Notes under the pieces: generated by a model
The model's input: only the letters and a program-made list of their open reading frames with translations
Databases searched by the model: none
What the model was told of the DNA's origin: nothing
Translations under genes and position numbers: made by a program
Assembly: GCA_947499155.1 (NCBI GenBank)
Contig: CANMND010000001.1
Span: 558,001-622,000, forward strand
Length of the DNA: 64,000 bases
Direction of reading: 5' to 3'
From: an uncultured Sphingomonadales bacterium
GTDB lineage: Bacteria; Pseudomonadota; Alphaproteobacteria; Sphingomonadales; Rhodothalassiaceae
Part shown: positions 21,879 to 33,712 of the stretch, piece after piece
How the letters are laid out: each line of letters begins with the position of its first letter
How positions within the stretch are numbered: the stretch's first letter is position 1

Positions 21879-23012
21879 ATGAATGATCGAAAAAATCCTT
21901 CCGATCTGAAACACGATAGATGGCGACAAGATCAACGTCGCGCTCTTTTGGCACGCCGTACAGGCATGCATGAACAAGGCAAGCGCGCAGCTGACAATCA
22001 GATCCACCGCCTGATCATCGGGCCGTTAAAAGACATGATCCCCCATCTTGATCAGACGACCGTCGGTTTTTACTGGCCGGTAAAGGGCGAGGTCGACCTG
22101 CGTCCCGTGATGACCGACTTAGCCAATGCCGGGACAAAGGCCCTTTTGCCCCTGGTTGTCGGTCGTGCCATGCCGCTTGATTTTCGCCACTGGGCACCCG
22201 GCGACCCCATGCAACCCGGCACCTATGGCATTCCCGTGCCGTCAAATACCAAAACCGCCAGACCCATGATCCTGTTTATACCCCTGGTCGGTTTTGATTC
22301 CGCTGGCTATCGTCTTGGCTACGGCGGCGGGCTGTATGATCGTACATTGGCATCTTACTCTCACAAGCCTATTACTATTGGCGTCGGATATTCTTTCGGT
22401 CAACTCGACAGTATCCGCCCCTTGGCTACTGATATCCCGCTTGACATTATCCTGACTGAACAAGGGATTATGAGTCCGGAAGGCATCACATCCAAATTGC
22501 CGGATACGCCCCAACCGGCTTCTCCCCCATGCACGATGAACGAGATGAGCCCGGAATATTTCGGGTATCTTGATACCGAAAGCATTCTCGCCCTGCTTGA
22601 CCAGCTTCTGGAAGCGGAACGGGCTGGTGCTCGGGGCGTCGCGTCCCTCAGCAGACAGGCGTCAGATCCTGCCACCCATGATCTCCTGCACGAAGTGGCG
22701 GGTGATGAGGCCCGCTTTTGTGCCATGCTAAGCGGCCATATCATGCGCCTTGGTGCCACCCCCAGCCGGAAGACCGGCGCTTTTTACGACAAGCTGATGG
22801 CGGTAAAGGATCAAACTGACAGCCTCGTACTCCTGAATCGCGGACAGGACTGGGTTGCCCGCACCATTCGGGATATTCTGCCACGAATTCAGGATGGCAG
22901 CCTCCACAAGGACCTAAAGCACATGCTGGACGTCCATGTGGAAAATATCCGCCGTTGCGACGCGCTTCTGGCAAATGAGGGCGAATCAGACGAACGAATC
23001 AAGACAAGATAA
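21879..23012 (+). CDS. 5-formyltetrahydrofolate cyclo-ligase fused to a DUF6306 ferritin-like domain
   Basis: Residues 1 to about 205 form a 5-formyl-THF cyclo-ligase, which uses ATP to turn 5-formyl-THF into 5,10-methenyl-THF. Evidence is RRALLARRTGM, GFYWPVKGEVDLRPVM and the family signature LVGFDSAGYRLGYGGGLYDRTLA. After a proline-rich linker the chain continues, starting at MNEMSPEYFGYLDTESIL near residue 220, with a helical domain matching DUF6306. This has acidic helices (LLEAERAGARGV, VAGDEARFCAML, VHVENIRRCDALL) of ferritin-like appearance. The frame is continuous, with no stop or shift. Cyclo-ligases normally end at about 190-200 residues, so this is a true two-domain form. The role of the second domain is unknown. 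Confidence 0.85.
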   Translation: MNDRKNPSDLKHDRWRQDQRRALLARRTGMHEQGKRAADNQIHRLIIGPLKDMIPHLDQTTVGFYWPVKGEVDLRPVMTDLANAGTKALLPLVVGRAMPLDFRHWAPGDPMQPGTYGIPVPSNTKTARPMILFIPLVGFDSAGYRLGYGGGLYDRTLASYSHKPITIGVGYSFGQLDSIRPLATDIPLDIILTEQGIMSPEGITSKLPDTPQPASPPCTMNEMSPEYFGYLDTESILALLDQLLEAERAGARGVASLSRQASDPATHDLLHEVAGDEARFCAMLSGHIMRLGATPSRKTGAFYDKLMAVKDQTDSLVLLNRGQDWVARTIRDILPRIQDGSLHKDLKHMLDVHVENIRRCDALLANEGESDERIKTR

Positions 23013-23303
23013 CCTTTTAGTTGTGTTATTTTTACACATTATCGCCCATTTCGCGCACCAGTTTATTGTTACATAATATTTCTCTTTAAGAGTGCATATT
23101 CTGCATCACCCTCTTAAGTGCATGATATAAAATCATAAATCGCATAAAAAATATTATACATTAATACGGGTAATATTTTAGACTAATACGCATATTACGA
23201 CGTAAGATTTCATTAACGCGCTACATCAAAGCATCACTCACCGCTTTCTGGTCGCAATGTATGACCGGAGGTACCGATTTCTTGTAACTGGTGATTGATA
23301 CAT
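23013..23303. other. AT-rich intergenic region before the chemotaxis operon
   Basis: About 290 bases, much more AT-rich than the flanking genes in its first two thirds, with no convincing reading frame. It must contain the promoter of the chemotaxis operon. I see no hairpin with a T run after the cyclo-ligase gene and no clear sigma-28 or sigma-70 element that I would defend. Confidence 0.5.
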
Positions 23304-23615
23304 ATGGCGATGACCGCACAGTTTTTTGGCAAAACGCAGACACTCAACACAGCTCAGGAGACACATGGCGTGCTCCTTGCAGCCTATAACGCGTCCGTTA
23401 CTCCTGCTTTCGATCTTAGTGAAGTAACGGATGTCGACATATCGTTTTTACAGATTCTGCTTGCGGCCAGAAAGTCTGCTCTTGCCAACGGGCAAGCCTT
23501 TAAGTTGTCCGCTCCACCGTCACCCAAGCTCGTAGAATTGCTGTTTCGTGCAGGCTTTATCAAAGCTGGCGAGAGCCCGGATCAGACGTTCTGGCAAGTG
23601 GAGGCGAGGTCATGA
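23304..23615 (+). CDS. STAS-domain protein of the chemotaxis operon
   Basis: A 103-residue single STAS domain like anti-sigma factor antagonists (SpoIIAA). The segment FDLSEVTDVDISFLQILLAARKSA aligns with the DSSGLG phosphorylation loop of SpoIIAA, keeping the phosphorylatable Ser (DIS) but not the Gly residues. I chose ATG 23304 with GGTGA upstream. The frame is open from a TTG at 23295. The stop overlaps the cheY start (ATGA). In this position it may tune the signalling complex rather than a sigma factor. That is inference. Confidence 0.75.
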   Translation: MAMTAQFFGKTQTLNTAQETHGVLLAAYNASVTPAFDLSEVTDVDISFLQILLAARKSALANGQAFKLSAPPSPKLVELLFRAGFIKAGESPDQTFWQVEARS

Positions 23616-23977
23616 CGAAAACCATACTGAGCGTGGATGACTCCGCAAGTATTCGTCAGATGATCACCTTCACACTGGAAACGGAGGGCTACCGGGTTGA
23701 AACCGCTGTTGATGGAGAGGACGGCCTTGAAAAGGCGAAGCTAGGGTCGTTCGACATGATCCTGGCCGACCTCAACATGCCCAGAAGGGATGGCATCTCG
23801 CTTATTCGCGAATTGCGTACCTTGCCTGCCTATCGGTTCACACCGCTTGTCATGCTTACCACAGAAACCCAGGCTGAAAAAAAATCGGAAGCGCGCGAAG
23901 CCGGTGCCACTGGCTGGATCGTCAAGCCCTTTGAACAAAAGCAACTTCTGGCCGTTGTCAGAAAAGTTCTTGGATAA
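23612..23977 (+). CDS. cheY: CheY-like response regulator
   Basis: A 121-residue lone receiver domain. The acidic pocket is VDD (residues 9-10), the phosphoacceptor is Asp53 in MILADLNMPRRDG, the switch Thr lies in PLVMLTTET, and the conserved Lys is in WIVKPFEQKQL. No output domain is attached, so it acts either at the flagellar motor or as a phosphate sink for CheA. It is coupled to the STAS gene by a 4-base overlap and ends 7 bases before cheA. Confidence 0.9.
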   Translation: MTKTILSVDDSASIRQMITFTLETEGYRVETAVDGEDGLEKAKLGSFDMILADLNMPRRDGISLIRELRTLPAYRFTPLVMLTTETQAEKKSEAREAGATGWIVKPFEQKQLLAVVRKVLG

Positions 23978-23984
23978 CCGGAAA

Positions 23985-26063
23985 ATGCCCATGGCCCCCA
24001 TTGATCCAACAACCATTTTCCTGCAGGAAGCGGACGATCTTTTGATCCAGCTTGAAGCAGCGCTTCTTGATCTTGAAAGCATGCCCAATAATGAAGCATT
24101 GATCGATCAGGCGTTTCGTGCCCTGCATACCATCAAGGGATCAGGCGCCATGTTCGGCTTTAAAATGGTGGCCGATTTCACCCATCATCTGGAAACTGCA
24201 TTTGAACAGGTCCGAACGAAAAAGCGCGCAGCAACACCTGAGCTTGTCAGCCTCACATTGCAGTCCATGGATCATATCCGCGCCCTGATCAACAATCCTG
24301 ATGACATTGACCAACAGCATCATCAAAGCCTGTGCCTGTCCTTGGAAAAAGCCATTGATGCGCCACACACCGCACAGGGCAGCCCATTTGAAAGCAACTC
24401 CCAATCCGATGATGCCTCAGACTTTACCGCCTGGGAGATACAGTTTCAGCCGGAGCCGGAAATCTTTTCCTATGGCGCAAATCCGGTCCTGCTGCTTGAT
24501 GAGCTGCGCAGGCTTGGCCCAAATTCTGTTATACCCCTTACAGACCAGGTGCCCTATCTGGAAGAGATGGACCCTACCCTGTCCTATCTGGGCTGGACGA
24601 TTATTCTGGTAACGGATCGTGGCCGCGCCGCTATTGAAGACGTTTTTATCTTCGCAAGTGACGAAGCGGGTATCGCCATTACAGAACTGACTGGAGAAGA
24701 GGCCAAATCCGCGCTCCAGACCCATGGCCTGTCCGTCCCTGCTTTTGACTCTCCTCACGACGTTGAACCGGCAACAGCAACTGACACGCTTGCGTCTTCA
24801 GAGGTATCGACAACCGAGCCTGACAGTGCCGAAGACAACGACTCTATACAAGCAACCAGTGACAGGCCCGCCACCGCTTCGCACAGGGCTGAAGCCCATG
24901 TCAGAGTTCCTGCCCATCGTCTGGACGCCTTGATGGATCTGGCGGGAGAACTCGTGATTGCCGAAGCACGGCTGAACCAGCTTTCGGCCCAGAGCAAAGA
25001 TATGACTTTGCGCAATATCGGAGAAGATATCGAGCGGCTTACGTCCGACCTTCGCGATATTACAATGACCATGCGCCTGACACCAATTGGGACCTTGTTC
25101 AATCGCTTCCGGCGTGTGGTGCGCGACCTGTCCAAGTCATTGGGAAAGCCTGTGTCCCTTACTCTTGAAGGGGAAGAAACCGAGTTGGACAAGACTGTTG
25201 TTGAAGCACTTGCAGACCCACTGGTCCACCTGATCCGCAACGCCATGGACCATGGGTTGGAAACGCCGGATCAGCGCGCAGAAAAAGGCAAGGCAAAAGA
25301 AGGTCACGTCCATTTGTCTGCCCGTCATAGCGGAGCCAATGTCCTGATCACCATAAGGGACGACGGGCGCGGGATGGATGCAGCAGCCATCAGAACCAAA
25401 GCCATAGAGCGCGGTCTTCTTAACACTGATGACACGCCATCGGACCAGGAGCTTTACGCCATGGTCTTCCACCCCGGCTTTTCCACAGCCAGGGAAATCA
25501 GCAATGTTTCAGGACGCGGCGTCGGCCTTGATGTGGTGAAACAGACTGTAACCGGCCTGCGAGGACGTATTGACGTCACCAGCACCAAGGACGAAGGCAC
25601 CGCCATCACGCTGAGATTACCCCTTACCCTCGCCATCATTGATGGCTTGTTGCTGAAAGTAGGCGATAGCCACTATGTGGCCCCACTTGCCTCTGTAGAA
25701 GAGGTGGTGGACATGGACGCGCAGAAAAACGCGGCCACCCGGACACGCAGCTTTCTCAATATCCGTGACGCTATTGTCCCCTTTATCCGCTTGCGCGATC
25801 TGTTTGGCACGCCCGGTGATGCGGGACAATTCCAGAAAGTCGTGATCGTATCGTTTGGCGACATGCGGGTGGGCCTGGTGGTCGATCAGGTGATCGGCCA
25901 ACATCAGACCGTCATCAAGTCACTGACCAGACTACATTCCCATATCACGCATTTTTCAGGTGCCACCATTCTAGGGGACGGCACCGTCGCGCTGATCCTT
26001 GAGATCGCTCATCTGGTCGAAGCAGGACAAACCCTTGAAGAACAGCAAAGGGGAGCAGGATGA
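23985..26063 (+). CDS. cheA: Chemotaxis histidine kinase CheA
   Basis: A 692-residue kinase from ATG 23985 (the ATG at 23991 is equally possible). The reading frame extends upstream into cheY, but that part is not CheA-like. The P1 Hpt domain has the phosphorylated His48 in FRALHTIKGSGAMFGF. P3 dimerization is HVRVPAHRLDALMDLAGELVI. P4 has the N box HLIRNAMDHGLE and G1 box IRDDGRGMD plus GRGVGLDVVK. P5 is the CheW-like coupling domain (LLLKVGDSHYVAPLASVEEVV). A low-complexity Thr/Ser/Asp linker separates P1/P2 from P3. It overlaps cheW by 4 bases. Confidence 0.96.
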   Translation: MPMAPIDPTTIFLQEADDLLIQLEAALLDLESMPNNEALIDQAFRALHTIKGSGAMFGFKMVADFTHHLETAFEQVRTKKRAATPELVSLTLQSMDHIRALINNPDDIDQQHHQSLCLSLEKAIDAPHTAQGSPFESNSQSDDASDFTAWEIQFQPEPEIFSYGANPVLLLDELRRLGPNSVIPLTDQVPYLEEMDPTLSYLGWTIILVTDRGRAAIEDVFIFASDEAGIAITELTGEEAKSALQTHGLSVPAFDSPHDVEPATATDTLASSEVSTTEPDSAEDNDSIQATSDRPATASHRAEAHVRVPAHRLDALMDLAGELVIAEARLNQLSAQSKDMTLRNIGEDIERLTSDLRDITMTMRLTPIGTLFNRFRRVVRDLSKSLGKPVSLTLEGEETELDKTVVEALADPLVHLIRNAMDHGLETPDQRAEKGKAKEGHVHLSARHSGANVLITIRDDGRGMDAAAIRTKAIERGLLNTDDTPSDQELYAMVFHPGFSTAREISNVSGRGVGLDVVKQTVTGLRGRIDVTSTKDEGTAITLRLPLTLAIIDGLLLKVGDSHYVAPLASVEEVVDMDAQKNAATRTRSFLNIRDAIVPFIRLRDLFGTPGDAGQFQKVVIVSFGDMRVGLVVDQVIGQHQTVIKSLTRLHSHITHFSGATILGDGTVALILEIAHLVEAGQTLEEQQRGAG

Positions 26064-26668
26064 CCACCATGTCAGCACCAGAAAAAAAATCCGGGACCGG
26101 GCAGACACAACCCAGAACTCTTGACGTTCTGACCCTTGGTCTTGGGGAAGAAATCTTCGCGGTCGATGCGCACAGGGTACATGAAATCCTCGATCTGGCG
26201 AAGGTGACGAAAGTGCCTGGTGCCAGTCCATTTGTGGACGGGCTTATCAATGTACGGGGCAAGGTAACGCCCCTTGCCGATCCGCGCCTGAAACTGGGCC
26301 TGCCTTGCCAGCCACCTACTGCGGATACCAGAATTATTGTTCTTGCTGTGGAGCTAGACGGCGAACAGATCACGGCAGGTATTTTAGCCGATCGGGTCTT
26401 TGAGGTGACCGAATTGCCTGCAGCCATACTTGAGGAAGCGCCTCGTATCGGCATGCGCTGGCATCCCGACATGATTTCAGCCGTCGGCAAGCGCAATGGG
26501 GATTTCGTGGTTGTTCTAAATATCGACCGCCTGTTCAGCCTGCCGCAAAACGGAGATGCGCGATCCGATGACGGCCCGCACCTGTACGCTATCGCGCAAG
26601 AACCGGACCCAAACCCGGAGACATACTCTGCCGGCTCTGGTCCCAATGCATCAGACTTTATTTTGTAG
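26060..26668 (+). CDS. cheW: CheW coupling protein (first copy)
   Basis: A 202-residue CheW, somewhat longer than the usual 160-170 because of an N-terminal extension of about 20 residues and a C-terminal tail rich in Asp, Pro and Ser. The SH3-like core is clear: LTLGLGEEIFAVDAHRVHEIL, then FVDGLINVRGKVTPLADPRLKLGL and ILADRVFEVTELPAAIL. It links CheA to chemoreceptors. Its start overlaps the cheA stop. It lies 12 bases before the MCP gene. Confidence 0.94.
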   Translation: MTTMSAPEKKSGTGQTQPRTLDVLTLGLGEEIFAVDAHRVHEILDLAKVTKVPGASPFVDGLINVRGKVTPLADPRLKLGLPCQPPTADTRIIVLAVELDGEQITAGILADRVFEVTELPAAILEEAPRIGMRWHPDMISAVGKRNGDFVVVLNIDRLFSLPQNGDARSDDGPHLYAIAQEPDPNPETYSAGSGPNASDFIL

Positions 26669-26680
26669 AATGGTTATAAA

Positions 26681-28465
26681 ATGTTCAAAAACATGAAAAT
26701 CGGTTCTCGTCTCGCAATGGGATTTGCTGTCCTGTTTGCCCTTATGGCCATCATTATTGGCGTCAGCATCAATTCCATATCATCCATTAACAAAACCACA
26801 GACAAAATCATTTCAACTGACTGGACAAAGATTTCAACAGTGAATGAAATCACGGCACTCGCCAATGACAATGCCCGCGCCAGTTTTGAGCTGTTTATTT
26901 ACACAGATGCAGCAGCACACGCGAAAATCGAACGTCGGATGGCAGACAATATCCGAGGTATTGATGAAAGGGTAGAGCTGTTAAAGGGCCTGTTCTATGA
27001 TCCCAAAGGTCAGGAACAGCTGGTTAATCTGGCTAAAATCCGCGCGCCTTATGTCGACTCCTTCAATGAAGTATCGTTGCTGATGTCAAATGGCGATCAG
27101 GCCCAAGCAATGGAAATTATGGGCGACCGCACCATTCCTGCCCTTGGCGTCTATCTCCAGGCGGTCCGTGATATAGCCGATTTCCAGGGCATATTGATGG
27201 AGCGGTCGGGCGCAGAATCCTTTGCCATGTCAAAGCGCAGCACCATGATCATCATTATCGCTGGCATAATTGCCCTTCTCAGTGGGATAGGCATCGCGTT
27301 TTGGGTAACGCGTTCGATCACCCGGCCCATTGGGAATGCTGTCACAGCCGCCAACGCACTGGCAGCAGGTGATCTCACCTACCGCATTGAGTCCACAGCA
27401 AAAGACGAAACCGGCATTCTTCTTACCGCTATGAAGAACATGACCGAGAAACTGCTGCAAATTATTGAGGATGTACATCAGGCTGCTGACAATGTGGCCT
27501 CAGGCAGCGAAGAGCTGTCTGCCAGTTCAGAACAGATGAGTCAGGGTGTGAACGATCAGGCGTCGGCCACGGAAGAAGCTTCTTCATCAATGGAGCAGAT
27601 GGCCGCCAATGTGAAACGTAATGCGGAAAATGCTTCGGAAACGGAAAAGATTGCGGGGCAATCTGCCAAGGATACGGAAAAGTCTGGCAAGGCCGTGGAG
27701 CAGGCCGTCACCGCCATGAAAACCATCGCCGAAAAGATTGATATCGTTCAGGAGATCGCGCGCCAGACTGACCTGCTTGCGCTTAATGCCGCCATTGAGG
27801 CCGCACGGGCCGGGGAACATGGCAAAGGTTTTGCGGTAGTCGCGTCAGAAGTCCGCAAGCTGTCTGAGCGCAGCCAGGCGGCCGCTGCTGAAATCATGGG
27901 TCTGTCGTCTGAAACCGTGACCATGTCCGAACAGGCCGGGGAAATGCTGGCAAAGCTGGTTCCCGATATCCGGCGGACGGCGGAACTGGTCGCCGATATC
28001 AGCGCAGCGTCCCGCGAACAAAGCGTTGGGGTCGAACAAATAAATTCATCAATCAAGCAGCTTGATGACGTGACTCAGCAAAATGCCAGCGCGTCGGAAG
28101 AAATGTCCGCCACCTCTGAAGAATTGGCAGGACAGGCCGAGCAACTTCAGCAGGCCATCTCCTTTTTCAATACCGGCAACAACACAGTCACTGGCCGCCA
28201 GAACCACACTAAAAAATCGCCGCAAGTGGCAAATTTACACTCCATTTCCGGCTTTCGGACAAAAGGGGCAACCCACAGCACAAACAATGCCAGAAACGGC
28301 AAGGCAGGGGTCAATCTCAATCGCCCACAAACTAACGGAACGTCTGCACGACTTGTGGGTAATGGTGCACACAAGAACGGCACCAACGGGTCTGGTAGCC
28401 ATGTCGTTTTAAAACTGGAAGATGGCGGGTACGACGCCGATGACAGCGCTTTCGAGCAGTATTGA
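26681..28465 (+). CDS. Methyl-accepting chemotaxis protein, transmembrane
   Basis: A 594-residue chemoreceptor. TM1 ([18 protein letters not shown]) and TM2 ([22 protein letters not shown]) bracket a periplasmic four-helix-bundle-type sensor of about 150 residues. HAMP follows ([20 protein letters not shown]), then the signalling hairpin with the nearly invariant tip [20 protein letters not shown]. The tail after about residue 510 is Asn/Gly/Thr-rich, a flexible linker that ends with the residues AFEQY. This fits the x-aromatic-x-x-aromatic pattern of pentapeptides that tether CheR or CheB. The ligand cannot be predicted. Confidence 0.95.
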
Positions 28466-28503
28466 GATGGCACGTATCTGGACATGCGAAAGGACCAGCA
28501 GCC

Positions 28504-29079
28504 ATGATTGAAAACAATGCCGTACAGTACGCAGACCCGCACTATCAAACGGCCACGGCCGAAGATGCGCCTCCGCCCCGGTACACAGATGACGACCGTT
28601 CTTATGTGACGGTTGGAATCGGCGGTGAAGTCTTCGCCCTTGATGTGGCCCAGGTGCGTGAGATTCTGGACATAACCCCCATGAGCAGAATCCCCAATAC
28701 ACCTGGTTTCGTGCGGGGCATGATTGATGTGCGCGGGGCCGGTGTGCCGGTCATAGACATGCGCATGCGTCTTGGCCTGCCTGTCAGCGAAGACACCCTC
28801 AACAGCCGCATTGTCGTCCTTGAAATATCTCTGGACGGGCGTGCACTGGTTATTGGCGCTCTCACGGACCGGGTTTATGAAGTAACACCGCTTGATGAGG
28901 GCGCCCTTGAGCCGCCACCTGAATTCGGCGTCCGCTGGCGTTCGGATTTCATCCGGGGTATCGGGCGCAAGGATGAGCGTTTTGTCATCATACTTGATCT
29001 CGACATTTTATTTGAAAGCGATCCGCTGGACAGCCTTGCGCAGACCACGGGGCATGGCCTTGATAAATCGGATGAATAA
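28504..29079 (+). CDS. cheW: CheW coupling protein (second copy)
   Basis: A 191-residue second CheW. AAAGGA at 28489-28494 stands 9 bases before ATG 28504. An earlier TTG in frame is not needed. The core is YVTVGIGGEVFALDVAQVREIL, GFVRGMIDVRGAGVPVIDMRMRLGL and ALTDRVYEVTPLDEGAL. It resembles the first copy in layout but is clearly diverged, so this is an old duplication or a second class. It overlaps the cheR start. Confidence 0.94.
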   Translation: MIENNAVQYADPHYQTATAEDAPPPRYTDDDRSYVTVGIGGEVFALDVAQVREILDITPMSRIPNTPGFVRGMIDVRGAGVPVIDMRMRLGLPVSEDTLNSRIVVLEISLDGRALVIGALTDRVYEVTPLDEGALEPPPEFGVRWRSDFIRGIGRKDERFVIILDLDILFESDPLDSLAQTTGHGLDKSDE

Positions 29080-29920
29080 AACCATGGACAGCACCGCCCT
29101 TAAACGCACCGATTTTCAACGCATTTCGCATCTGGTGGAAACCAATTGCGGAATCCGGCTTCCTGATGGAAAACGCACAATGGTCGAAGGCCGATTGCGC
29201 AAACGCGTCAAGGCACTTGGGCTTCAGCATGTAAACGACTATTGCCGCATGTTGTTTGACCAGGGTGGTCTTGATGAGGAACTGATACATCTGCTTGACA
29301 GTGTGACCACCAACAAGACCGATTTCTTCCGCGAGCCCAGGCATTTTGACTTTCTGGTTGATCATGCTGTTCCTGATCTTCTGGAACGCGGCGTCCGCCC
29401 CTTGCGTGTCTGGAGTGCTGCTTGTTCCAGCGGTGAAGAGCCGTACACCCTGGCAATGATCCTGCGCGACTTGTCGAACGGGATAGGGCCATTTGACATG
29501 ACCATTGATGCGTCTGACATCTCGACCCGGATGCTGCATCAGGCCATGACCGCAATTTATACCGAACAGGTTGTATCACCTGTGCCGCTGGAGATGCGTA
29601 GGCGCTATATGCTGCGCTCGCGCAACCGTGTCAGCCAGCGTGTGCGCATGACGCCTGAGATACGGTCCATGATCGCCTTCCACTATATCAATCTTCTGGA
29701 CGAGGGCATGCCTTTCTCGCAGAAGATGGACATAGTTTTCTGTCGCAATGTGCTGATCTATTTCAGCCGCGAAACACAGGCCCGTGTCATCCACAAGCTG
29801 GTCAGTTCCATCACGCCGGGAGGTTATCTGTTTCTTGGCCACTCGGAATCTGCCAATGGCTTGCAACTGCCCATGAAGCAGGTAGCACCGTCCGTCTATC
29901 GGATAACCGATGGCTTATGA
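29072..29920 (+). CDS. cheR: Chemoreceptor methyltransferase CheR
   Basis: Transfers methyl groups from AdoMet to receptor glutamates. The N-terminal helical domain is visible in [29 protein letters not shown]. The AdoMet fold follows with [45 protein letters not shown] and [19 protein letters not shown] use ATG 29072, which overlaps the cheW stop. ATG 29084 ([14 protein letters not shown]) is equally plausible, giving 282 or 278 residues. The frame is open farther upstream within cheW, but that part is not CheR-like. It overlaps cheB by 4 bases. Confidence 0.95.
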
Positions 29921-31014
29921 ACAAGATCAAGGTCCTCATCGTTGACGATTCCGCCAGCGTTCGTCATGTCATGTCTGAAGTGTTGTCCTCCGACCCCGCC
30001 ATTGAGGTGATCGGGACGGCACCCGACCCCTATGTTGCCGCCCGCAAGATTGCTGCCGAAACGCCTGATGTCATCACGCTTGATGTGGAAATGCCCCGCA
30101 TGGATGGCCTGACTTTTCTGCGCAAGATCATGGAGCAGCACCCTATTCCTGTCGTGATCTGTTCGTCACTGACTGAACAGGGTTCACAAGTCATGCTTGA
30201 TGCCCTTGATGCAGGCGCGGTGGATGTAATTTCAAAACCTCATATGGGAACCAGCCAGTTCTTGCGTGACTCCCATATGCTTATTTGTGACGCAGTCCGG
30301 GCTGCGGCTGTCGCCAATCTCACCAGGCTTGGTGCGGCAAAACCTGCCAGGGCACAAGCCACGAGCGGCAGCAGCAATCGCACCATTCGGCCAGCCACCC
30401 TCAAATGCACGACAGACAAGGTGGTCTGTATCGGTGCCTCAACCGGCGGGACGCGGGCACTTCAGGCCGTTCTGACGGAGCTGCCTGGCACCTGTCCGGG
30501 CATACTTATTGTCCAGCACATGCCACAGCATTTCACCGAAGCGTTTGCCAACCGCCTGAACGGGCTTTGTACCATCACGGTCCGAGAGGCCAAGGACGGC
30601 GATGCGGTTTTGCGCGGCCATGCCCTAATTGCACCGGGCGACAAGCACCTTTTGTTGCGGCGCAGTGGTGCCAATTATTACGCTGAGGTAAGAGACGGAC
30701 CGCTGGTGTCGCGTCACCGACCTTCGGTCAATGTCCTGTTCCGCTCGGCGGCAAAGTATGCCGGTGCCAATGCCATGGGTGTCCTAATGACGGGAATGGG
30801 GGATGACGGCGCGAAAGGGCTTCTTGAACTCCGTCAGGAAGGTGCCGTAACGATTGCTCAATCAGAAGAAAGCAGTGTTGTATTTGGCATGCCGCGTGAA
30901 GCCATCCGGCTAGATGCCGCATCTCATGTCGTGCCGCTCGATGCTATCGCCCGGTCCATCATGTCCGGTCCATCCTTGCACGAGCAAAGTCATGAGGTCG
31001 TTCAAGAATGCTGA
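29917..31014 (+). CDS. cheB: Chemotaxis methylesterase/deamidase CheB
   Basis: A 365-residue two-domain enzyme that removes methyl groups from receptors when phosphorylated by CheA. The receiver domain has VDDSAS near the start and phosphoacceptor Asp56 ([13 protein letters not shown]). The esterase domain carries a Ser-His-Asp triad: Ser175 in [11 protein letters not shown], His201 in [12 protein letters not shown] and Asp297 in [10 protein letters not shown]. It is the last gene of the che operon and stops 15 bases before the convergent MCP-like gene. Confidence 0.96.
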
Positions 31015-31029: not shown

Positions 31030-32817
31030 TCAAAAGAGCACATCATCAAGAAACGCTTCCTCATCCATTTTAGGATGGGACATGGCTTTATCAGTATCGT
31101 CTCGTATCTGCCCCATATGAAGCTGACGCTCGCTTTCCATAGTATAACGCGTTTCCATACTACGGAACGATGTGCTCCTGAGACGGGAAAAATCATCTGA
31201 GGAAAGATGGGGTGCCATCAGGGTGGCATCATCACGCAAGCCTTCACCGATAGCTGTCATGGTTTTCTGCAGATCTTCATTGCCACGAAAGCGCCCAACC
31301 ACGGCTTTTGCCCCCTGCATGGCGTCAGCGCCCACGTCCTCGATCAATCGCAAGACCTGACTGATGTTTTTATCGGTCTCATTCAAAACACTAATCCAGT
31401 TTTCAAGCTTCCCTGCCAGACCATCATCAGATCCACGGCCAGGTGTCATGGCATCAGCTCCACTGCTTTCGTCACGGTCAGCCAGTTCACCGGCATGGGC
31501 GGCCACCCTTTCAATTCCGGACGAAGCCTTGTCAGTCAATTGCCGTGAGGTTGCGGCGCAGGCGCGCAGTTCATGGGCAAGAACAGTCAGCGTCCGGCCA
31601 TCCCATCCCCGATTACCACAGATAATCGCGGCGTTAAGGCCTAACACATTCATATCTATATCAATTTCACGAATATCTGCGATATCCGTCACCACATGCC
31701 TAGTGTCTTGTGTCACGTTCCGCAGCTGTGCCCGGGTTTTCTCCAACATGGTATTGTGGGCCGATGTAATATCGACAACCGCTCTCAGATCATCAGTGAT
31801 TGCAGATAAAAAACTTTCACCATTGCCAAAAGCATGACCGTAAACTGAATTCAGCACCTCAAGAATTCGGGAAACAATATCTGCTAAAGAGTCGAGCGAG
31901 CGCAAAGCCCGGCCAGTCTTTTCCCTATAATCCTTTATGATATCATCCATATGAAGGGCCTGAAGATCACACATGGCCGCGTATTCAATCGTATCGTCAT
32001 CAGAATCTGTGCGGTTTGATGCAGACGCAAGCGGGGCCTCCAGGCCTTCCACCACATGTTCAATCCGTTGGCGCAAGATATCTCCGAACTGTAGGTCCGC
32101 AACCAGACGCCCTGTCAAATCAGACCCCTCATCCAACAGGCTGCGCAGGCTGTCCATAGCATCAACAATCGCTTTTTTCCGGTTATGGACCAGATTCAGA
32201 GATACACTGAAATAACGTTTGATCTCAGTGGCCTGGCGCTCATGGGTACTTTCGAAGTCACGCCACTGCCGTGCAGCATCCACGGCAGTTCCCTCAAGCC
32301 CTTTCAAAACCGCCAAAGAACGGTCAAGGGTTTCCCGTCCCTTTTCTGACAGGGTCAATATACCCTTGGTGAATGACTGGAGTCCAATAGCGCCGTCACC
32401 CAGATGCGCGCCCTCGATGGTGGCATTGACCCCAAGAACACGGACATATCCCATGATAGCCGCTGCTTCGCCCAGGGTCCTGTGGCTTTCCTGAACACTT
32501 GAAATCAGGGCCTCAAGCCGTGTCCCGTGGCCTTTGCCTGCAAGGTTTCCAGGTTCGCCGATAGTCTCCATTGCCTCTTCAAGACCCCGCAAAGTCTGAT
32601 AGAAGTCTGAAGAGTCGATCAGGCCTGACAAAGTGATTGCCTGCGTATCCAGTGTTCTCAAGGACCCGGCAAGATCGTGAAGCTGCTTGCCAATATCGAG
32701 AAACATAGCCTCAAGTGGCGCTTGCAGGGCCGAAAGGCGCAAGGCATTCTCCTTGACGCGCCCTCGCCAGTTCTGGTCAGCCACTCGTCCTTTCCTGTTA
32801 TCGGAAGATACATCCAT
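31030..32817 (-). CDS. Soluble MCP-like protein with two degenerate signalling tips
   Basis: A 595-residue, mostly helical protein without membrane segments or signal peptide. Two segments resemble the MCP hairpin tip: residues 125-160 (VRVLGVNATIEGAHLGDGAI) and residues 388-428 (MNVLGLNAAIICGNRGWDGR). Both keep the xLGxNAxI pattern but lack the usual EAARAGE core. Between them lie LQFGDILRQRIEHVVEGLE and a coiled-coil stretch. It faces the che operon on the opposite strand, so a role in the same signalling array is likely. Whether it couples to CheA/CheW, acts as a sink or has another partner is unknown. Not a standard receptor. Confidence 0.6.
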   Translation of the reverse strand: MDVSSDNRKGRVADQNWRGRVKENALRLSALQAPLEAMFLDIGKQLHDLAGSLRTLDTQAITLSGLIDSSDFYQTLRGLEEAMETIGEPGNLAGKGHGTRLEALISSVQESHRTLGEAAAIMGYVRVLGVNATIEGAHLGDGAIGLQSFTKGILTLSEKGRETLDRSLAVLKGLEGTAVDAARQWRDFESTHERQATEIKRYFSVSLNLVHNRKKAIVDAMDSLRSLLDEGSDLTGRLVADLQFGDILRQRIEHVVEGLEAPLASASNRTDSDDDTIEYAAMCDLQALHMDDIIKDYREKTGRALRSLDSLADIVSRILEVLNSVYGHAFGNGESFLSAITDDLRAVVDITSAHNTMLEKTRAQLRNVTQDTRHVVTDIADIREIDIDMNVLGLNAAIICGNRGWDGRTLTVLAHELRACAATSRQLTDKASSGIERVAAHAGELADRDESSGADAMTPGRGSDDGLAGKLENWISVLNETDKNISQVLRLIEDVGADAMQGAKAVVGRFRGNEDLQKTMTAIGEGLRDDATLMAPHLSSDDFSRLRSTSFRSMETRYTMESERQLHMGQIRDDTDKAMSHPKMDEEAFLDDVLF

Positions 32818-32958: not shown

Positions 32959-33118
32959 CACGCGCGTTCAGACAAATGTCATGTGCCTTCATTGGGACCA
33001 TGGTTTAAGGGCAAAGACCCTTGCAGCAACAGCCTGCGGACATCGACCCCAAAAGCGCGGGATCCCCAAAGGGACAGACCGCCCGGTGATTTGCGGCGTA
33101 CAAGATGAAAGAAAGCTT

Positions 33119-33712
33119 ATGTTCGCAGTCGTGAAGACAGGCGGCAAGCAGTACAAGGTGTCTGAAGGCGATGTGATCGTCATCGAACGCCTTGCTGGTG
33201 AAGCCGGTGATAATGTGACCCTTGATCATGTTTTGATGATGGGTACGGACAAAAAACTTGAGGTTGGAACCCCGACCATCAAAGGCGGTGTTGTTACAGC
33301 CGAAATTCTGGAACAGGCGCGCGGAGACAAGATTATTGTCTTCAAGAAGAAGCGCCGCCATAATTATCGCCGCAAGCGCGGACATCGGCAGGATCTGACT
33401 GTTCTGCGCATCCTCGGCATTGGGGCTGATGCAAAGAAGGCAGCGCCCAAAAAGGCTGCAGCCACTGCTGACAAGGAAAAAGCCTCCGGCACCAAAGCTG
33501 CTGACAAAGACGAGGCGGTAAAAGCTGCTGCTCCAAAAGCAACAGCAGCCAAGAAGGCAACTGAGACGAAGAGCAAAGCCGCAGCGTCTGAGAAAAAGCC
33601 AGCAGCCAAAAAGGCACCTGCCAAGAAAGCGGCGCCAAAAAAAGCTGAGTCTGCAAAGACTGCACCGAAAAAGACAGCGGCCAAAAAAGCTGCACCGAAA
33701 AAAGCCGAATAG
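33119..33712 (+). CDS. rplU: 50S ribosomal protein L21 with long basic tail
   Basis: The start at 33119 gives [20 protein letters not shown], the standard L21 N-terminus. An open frame back to 32981 is not L21-like. Residues 1-103 are the L21 core, including [17 protein letters not shown] that binds 23S rRNA. Residues 104-197 are a Lys/Ala/Pro tail with repeated AAKKA and APKKA units, resembling histone H1 tails. Such tails occur in alphaproteobacterial L21s, but this one nearly doubles the protein. Downstream order rpmA-obgE-nadD-rsfS is conserved. Confidence 0.95.

Follow-up and report, generated by a model that had tools for sequence, protein, structure and literature searches.

A soluble protein with two chemoreceptor hairpins and a CheZ-like DxxxQ helix, encoded beside a che operon, is a candidate CheY-P phosphatase

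The stretch of DNA analysed here (the window; 64,000 nucleotides of an uncultured Sphingomonadales bacterium) carries a che operon on the forward strand. The gene of a STAS-domain protein (23295..23615, +) precedes that of a CheY-like receiver of 121 residues (23612..23977, +), the proposed substrate in the interpretation given below. The listed start of the CheA gene (23790..26063, +) overlaps the CheY gene; since the homology to related CheAs starts near residue 66, translation probably begins close to 23980. Genes for CheW (26060..26668, +), a 4HB-HAMP-MCP chemoreceptor (26681..28465, +), a second CheW (28462..29079, +), and CheR (28892..29920, +) follow. The STAS protein, CheY, CheA, the two CheWs, the chemoreceptor, and CheR were assigned by family matches, and the last ORF of the operon (29917..31014, +) is presumably CheB, judged from its sequence. 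Convergent with this CheB gene and separated from it by 15 bases lies the gene of the protein studied here, designated X (31030..32817, −; 595 residues, ATG start). X thus faces the che operon, as the original prediction had it. Promoter and terminator scans gave a signal no higher than that of shuffled sequences. Two other ORFs of the window may be mentioned. The ORF at 21879-23012 (+) encodes a 5-formyltetrahydrofolate cyclo-ligase fused to DUF6306 (PF19825, 2.7e-39), and the ORF at 32981-33712 (+), which presumably encodes ribosomal protein bL21, has a long Lys/Ala/Pro-rich, histone-H1-like C-terminal tail. The host genome (2.8 Mb in 25 contigs) has one match to X and eight other MCP matches. 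Its second CheA gene sits in another che cluster, and it has two CheZ genes, at G000:C2:452158-452436 and G000:C3:128667-128933, one of which adjoins ORFs that resemble motility genes.

X is a single soluble chain with two MCP-type hairpins. Its hydropathy gives no hint of a membrane segment, the top 19-residue Kyte-Doolittle mean being 1.05, in agreement with the claim that the protein is soluble. Its AlphaFold model is entirely helical (pLDDT 83.8, pTM 0.64); the alignments used for fold prediction, A2 with 33 relatives and A3 with 29, were all drawn from the 45 loci described below. Two diverged receptor tips had been proposed at residues 125-160 and 388-428, and both are hairpin turns in the model. 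In tip 1 (32338..32445, −), which reads VLGVNATI, the turn at residues 139-143 joins helices 97-138 and 144-241, and in tip 2 (31534..31656, −), which reads VLGLNAAI, the turn at 402-403 joins helices 336-401 and 404-451. The MCP profile expected at both segments was found at the second: PF00015 matches residues 353-447 with an E-value of 4.4e-7 and 30.3 bits, below the gathering score of 34.6, and no Pfam family matches the tip 1 segment itself. In the genome scan, the PF00015 score of X was 33 bits, or 35.9 counting its neighbours in frame, which is just above the cut-off. Among 34 members of the X family, 17 are matched by PF00015 at E 0.01. As for the first half of X (residues 15-267), it aligns with the MCP-containing short relatives described below with an hhalign probability of 99.0% (E 4.6e-18).

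When residues 17-270 were modelled alone (pLDDT 90.1, pTM 0.55), the best 12 Foldseek matches were all chemoreceptor structures or models, the top one having an E-value of 1.2e-6. In VIA-align, this first-half model aligned with 3zx6_A (HAMP-Tsr) at Z 13.8 (rmsd 3.6, 251 residues) and with 2ch7_A at Z 13.6 (rmsd 3.2, 252 residues), but an unrelated SMC coiled coil scored Z 13.2, so the receptor matches are tied with it. Within the model of the full chain, the second half aligned with the soluble Thermotoga receptor 3g6b_B at Z 9.8 (rmsd 2.3, 212 residues). The whole-chain search does not discriminate, because unrelated helical bundles outscore the receptors, the top match (Z 16.0) being an unrelated membrane protein; thus, the assignment to receptors leans on the sequence profiles too. 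With that reservation about the whole chain, the models and fold searches did not give the fold unrelated to MCP hairpins that had been named as speaking against the original prediction. CheZ was absent among the fold matches listed for the whole chain and for the first half, which carries no weight either way.

How widely is X distributed? A single-protein search of the genome contigs with X found no relative. With X alone as the query over 60 genomes, its own included, one full-length relative was found (in G053), with 26% identity in the alignment. It lies in a CheY-CheA-CheW-MCP-CheW-CheR-CheB-X operon, on the same strand and directly after CheB. A search of GTDB species genomes with the resulting two-row alignment gave 45 loci, which were picked by the patterns RQRIEHV[VE] or [TA]RYTM[ED]SE. 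From the record titles, I take 34 of these loci to be alphaproteobacterial and the others to belong to Litchfieldella, Nitrospirae/Nitrospirota, deltaproteobacteria, Chthoniobacter, and unnamed records. A 34-row profile was then run over 396 genomes of the order, in which 20 full-length X proteins, all scoring at least 274 bits, were found in 19 genomes, the next hit being half-length at 72.8 bits; since three candidates per genome were scored, misses are possible. In total, 61 relatives scored at least 47 bits. Of these, 55 with a length of 500-700 residues were aligned with X, and five short forms and one ORF of 1052 residues do not enter the counts. A Kyte-Doolittle stretch of 1.6-1.82 is present in 17 of the 56 aligned proteins.

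The X family is linked to chemotaxis genes. CheA, CheB, or CheR genes are present at 41 of the 45 loci of X or a short form: at 28 loci the gene is co-directional with CheB and immediately downstream of it, at 10 it lies directly before CheY/CheA, and three further loci have CheA, CheB, and CheR genes in other arrangements (L026, which is convergent as in the window, L049, and L062). The remaining four loci are L027, where X adjoins MCP and CheW genes, and L040, L042, and L065, where the X gene sits on a small contig or close to the end of one. On an Agrobacterium leguminum plasmid, a relative annotated as 'chemotaxis protein' is convergent with a che operon, with a ParA gene in between. Co-occurrence with this class of che system had been suggested as a check. 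With the window CheA as the query, 19 genes in 18 of the 396 genomes scored at least 422.8 bits, with 46-59% identity (100% for the query gene itself), and the next scored 408.8 bits with 39% identity; the gap is narrow and the line was set by me. All 18 genomes with that CheA have X, and 18 of the 19 genomes with X have that CheA. In the 19th (G361), X lies at base 111 of its contig and no CheA scores that high, and another genome (G372) has two X genes and two of that CheA. In a CheA tree, the 18 loci and 28 CheAs of X loci form one clade (support 100/99). Outside it fall the CheAs of two X-less loci (L195 and L196), the second CheA of the host, and the CheAs of L049 and eight other loci of X or a short form; the tree held these two X-less CheAs of other genomes, and some of its branches are long. 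The tree supports the cut and suggests that X follows one CheA clade. A clear exception is L049, from Sphingomonas sp. RIT328, in which X comes after CheY and a CheA of quite another kind, which sits on a long branch and scores 271 bits against the CheA of the window. Two genomes of the host's genus (G001 and G002) have neither a full-length X nor that CheA; thus, the cluster behaves as an accessory unit.

The tips of X have lost the core of an ordinary receptor tip, as had been claimed. At the equivalents of the tip contact positions E385 and R388 of Tsr, X itself has I399 and N402 in tip 2 and E135 and H138 in tip 1. Across the 56 aligned proteins, the E385 equivalent is Glu in none at tip 2 and in seven at tip 1, and the R388 equivalent is Arg in 26 at tip 2 and in three at tip 1. 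Judged from this alignment, the loss of the tip core is common to the whole X family. The Asn of the tip NA is retained in 56/56 proteins at tip 2 and in 51/56 at tip 1.

Apart from the tip Asn, the densest conserved run in the alignment is formed by a DxxxQ helix between the hairpins and a motif near the C-terminus. The helix (residues 240-258, ADLQFGDILRQRIEHVVEG; 32044..32100, −) has the family consensus Q-x-G-D-x-x-R-Q-R-x-E-H-V, and in the AlphaFold model its DxxxQ opens a helix of residues 244-266 after a helix break at 242-243. Five positions are invariant in 56/56 (G43, D246, Q250, H254, and N395), and five are nearly so: Q243, R249, E563, and R564 in 55 each and E253 in 54. The C-terminal motif, YTMxxERxxH, is conserved and reads RYTMESERQLH in X (residues 557-567; 31117..31149, −). 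It is followed by an acidic tail (residues 587-595, EAFLDDVLF; 31033..31059, −), which resembles CheZ tails such as QDDIDALF and has low confidence in the model. The final residue is Phe in 44 and Leu in eight of the 56 proteins, usually preceded by acidic residues. As the loci were selected by motif patterns, one of which contains Q250 and H254, part of the observed conservation is selection. D246, which lies in neither pattern, is present in 39/39 of the pattern-found relatives and in 16/16 of the others; in these 16 relatives from outside the pattern search, Q250, H254, E563, and R564 are likewise present in all, although the profile that found them was built from two motif-bearing sequences.

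Five relatives are short, with 387-428 residues. Four are titled Nitrospirae/Nitrospirota (L056, L063, L066, and L069) and one 'uncultured bacterium' (L059). Each has a hydrophobic N-terminus (top hydropathy 1.9-2.3) and one MCP tip of the canonical type, after which come SMQFQDITRQ or GMQFQDITRQ and then YTMESER. An LF tail (ELF or TLF) is present in two of them and absent in three. The distance from the tip Asn to the Asp of DxxxQ is 115 residues in all five and in X. By hhalign, the X family aligns with the five short forms twice, each time at about 99%: over residues 15-267 with DxxxQ in register, and over residues 245-575 with YTMESER in register. That each half finds its match in one and the same set of single-hairpin proteins suggests a tandem duplication in X, with DxxxQ surviving in copy 1 and the C-terminal motif in copy 2; copy 2 has no DxxxQ at the matching site. 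A profile of the short-form C-terminus matches the helix of X itself in the host genome with an E-value of 8.7e-7. Such C-termini are rare in the order, occurring at seven places in 6/396 genomes, two of which are the X proteins of G274 and the host. The order also contains two single-hairpin DxxxQ relatives, L166 and L168 (in G155 and G394), with another CheA gene at a distance of about 4 kb and 1.3 kb, respectively; they have a degenerate tip and LQF[QE]DVMRQRL, and end in RIELF.

Is the DxxxQ helix related to that of CheZ? In the passages of PMC7750401 dealing with CheZ, DXXXQ is the phosphatase motif and the C-terminal region is involved in CheY binding. All 32 CheZ sequences collected from the order, two of them from the host genome, read FQD[IL]TGQR, having been located by that same motif. 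The CheZ family PF04344 matches four of the seven short forms, all below the cut-off (L059, 1.1e-5; L069, 2.9e-5; L056, 6.4e-4; L066, 1.2e-3), and has no match in L063, L166, and L168. PF00015 also matches these four of the five first described, with E-values of 1.7e-26 or less. In BLASTP, the host CheZ matched the short form L069 with an E-value of 6e-6. PF04344 has no match in X and none in 34 family members at E 0.01, and X matches the NCBIfam CheZ model with an E-value of 0.055. In profile comparison with CheZ, hhalign gave the short forms 90.9% (E 1.2e-6), against 0.3% for the reversed profile and no more than 0.2% in any of 10 column shuffles. The X family gave 15.3% (E 0.0017), which fell to 1.0% when residues 236-265 were masked, against 4.3% for the reversed profile, and 34 operon MCPs gave 0.8%. 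A chance likeness of helical proteins to CheZ can thus be rejected for the short forms by the reversed, shuffled, and MCP controls; for X alone, it is not fully rejected (15.3% versus 4.3%).

Ordinary MCPs also carry DxxxQ, in the form QLDxVTQQ, so that the case for CheZ likeness rests on the entire helix. Over 21 residues of this helix, the mean BLOSUM62 score against CheZ was 41.7 for the short forms and 20.4 for the X family (rows from 7.1 to 31.2, the window row 26.2), with the CheZ and short-form segments located by the motif itself. The QLDxVTQQ segments of ordinary MCPs scored 2.5, and 2000 random MCP 21-mers had a mean of −15.1 and a maximum of 21.1. The idea that the helix of X and the short forms is plain QLDxVTQQ was rejected, since that segment aligns upstream of DITRQ in hhalign and has low similarity to CheZ. 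Q..D...Q is missing in six of the eight other host MCPs (L108 was outside this check), and the operon MCP matches it through QLDDVTQQ.

Because the tip chemistry has been lost, the CheZ-like stretch has been kept, and the gene travels with chemotaxis genes, X probably ends the signal. I consider it rather likely that X is the signal-termination protein of the window che system, a CheZ-like CheY-P phosphatase built on receptor hairpins. A possible order of gains and losses is as follows. The unit that was duplicated in tandem would have been an MCP hairpin with a CheZ-like DxxxQ helix at its end, and the two hairpins of the single soluble chain could pack as a pseudo-dimer. The tips would have lost their contacts with CheA, CheW, and the receptor trimer, copy 2 its DxxxQ, and copy 1 its C-terminal motif, giving the order hairpin 1, DxxxQ, hairpin 2, YTMxxERxxH, and acidic tail. 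In CheZ, the glutamine of the motif orients the attacking water. By analogy, the tail of X may capture the phosphorylated CheY of the operon, D246 and Q250 may enter the CheY active site, and Q250 may orient the water. Counting against the phosphatase reading are that X is not recognised as CheZ by the CheZ profiles, that the host has two CheZ genes, and that three of the five short forms have no LF tail. The view that X stands in for an absent CheZ does not hold in general. Besides the two CheZ genes of the host, the absence of CheZ does not track X: PF04344 had no match in any of the 21 f6 genomes tested, 16 with X and five without, and matched in all 15 of the genomes outside f6.

Other roles have to be weighed against this. 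The original prediction offered three, namely array modulation, competition for CheW, and the marking of phosphorylated CheY for hydrolysis. The hairpins of X might insert into the CheA/CheW arrays or compete with them and so tune the kinase, the DxxxQ helix being structural. The MCP fold of both halves, the retained tip Asn, and the position of the gene next to CheB or CheY/CheA all fit such a role, but it is weakened by the loss of the tip contact residues and by the fact that, the tip Asn aside, conservation is densest in the DxxxQ helix and the C-terminal motif; I regard it as unlikely. The third suggestion comes closest because of the invariant CheZ-like helix and the CheZ-like tail, a reason absent from the original prediction, in which the DxxxQ helix at 240-258 and the conserved C-terminus went unnoticed.

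The tail, which is CheZ-like in most family members, would also suit a sink or adaptor that binds CheY-P and holds or delivers it without catalysis. A protein that did no more than bind CheY-P could do without D246 and Q250, however, and their presence in every aligned protein makes this quite improbable. I give just as little weight to the view that the helix serves another partner, such as CheB or a response regulator encoded elsewhere than in the operon, or that X regulates methylation as CheT may do with CheR. That X directly follows CheB in 28 of the 45 loci would suit it, as would the complex of CheR with the DXXXQ phosphatase CheT of Sinorhizobium meliloti described in the review PMC12654446, but in 10 of the 45 loci X or a short form stands directly before CheY/CheA instead.

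The preferred reading of X as a CheY-P phosphatase bears on a wider and more doubtful idea, for which I see perhaps some chance. The family may link receptors and CheZ: a site for CheY dephosphorylation would have evolved on a chemoreceptor hairpin or have a common ancestor with one. If so, the short forms, with their hydrophobic N-terminus and intact tip, would act in arrays as receptor-embedded phosphatases, a single lattice then both controlling the kinase and terminating the signal, and tandem forms such as X would be their soluble, uncoupled relatives. The short forms, which carry both signatures, would then be a testable evolutionary link from receptor hairpins to CheZ.

Among the matches listed in the literature search, no receptor-hairpin protein with a CheZ-like site was found, nor was any report of a DxxxQ-type motif in natural soluble double-MCPs in the literature searched, subscription papers being mostly outside its reach; the CheZ passages of PMC7184735 name no such hairpin protein either. 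With CheZ, X shares a DxxxQ on a long helix with Arg after the Gln, an acidic C-terminal tail, and membership of a che system. Unlike CheZ, it has 595 residues and two MCP hairpins, Gly in place of Gln before the Asp, Arg in place of Gly before the Gln, and His eight residues after the Asp, where most of the CheZ sequences compared have Lys. With the MCP signalling domain (PF00015), X shares the fold of both hairpins and the tip Asn; it differs in that a ligand domain, HAMP, and a membrane segment were not found, the tip core is lost, the unit is duplicated, and a CheZ-like helix and tail are present. In the Che2 cluster of R. centenum, as described in passages of PMC2890560, CheW is tripartite and CheA a hybrid, unlike in the window operon. 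CheT, according to PMC12654446, is a DXXXQ phosphatase outside CheZ that is reported to dephosphorylate one CheY. Like X, it is an alphaproteobacterial che protein that is not CheZ and has DXXXQ; compared by that description, its predicted structure is likened to CheZ and not to a receptor. Natural soluble single-chain MCPs with two receptor signalling domains, an arrangement also seen in X, are described in passages of PMC4692393, where their role is stated as unknown. If the phosphatase reading of X is true, at least one kind of soluble double-MCP would have a function, and chemotaxis phosphatases would gain a receptor-derived class beside CheZ and CheT.
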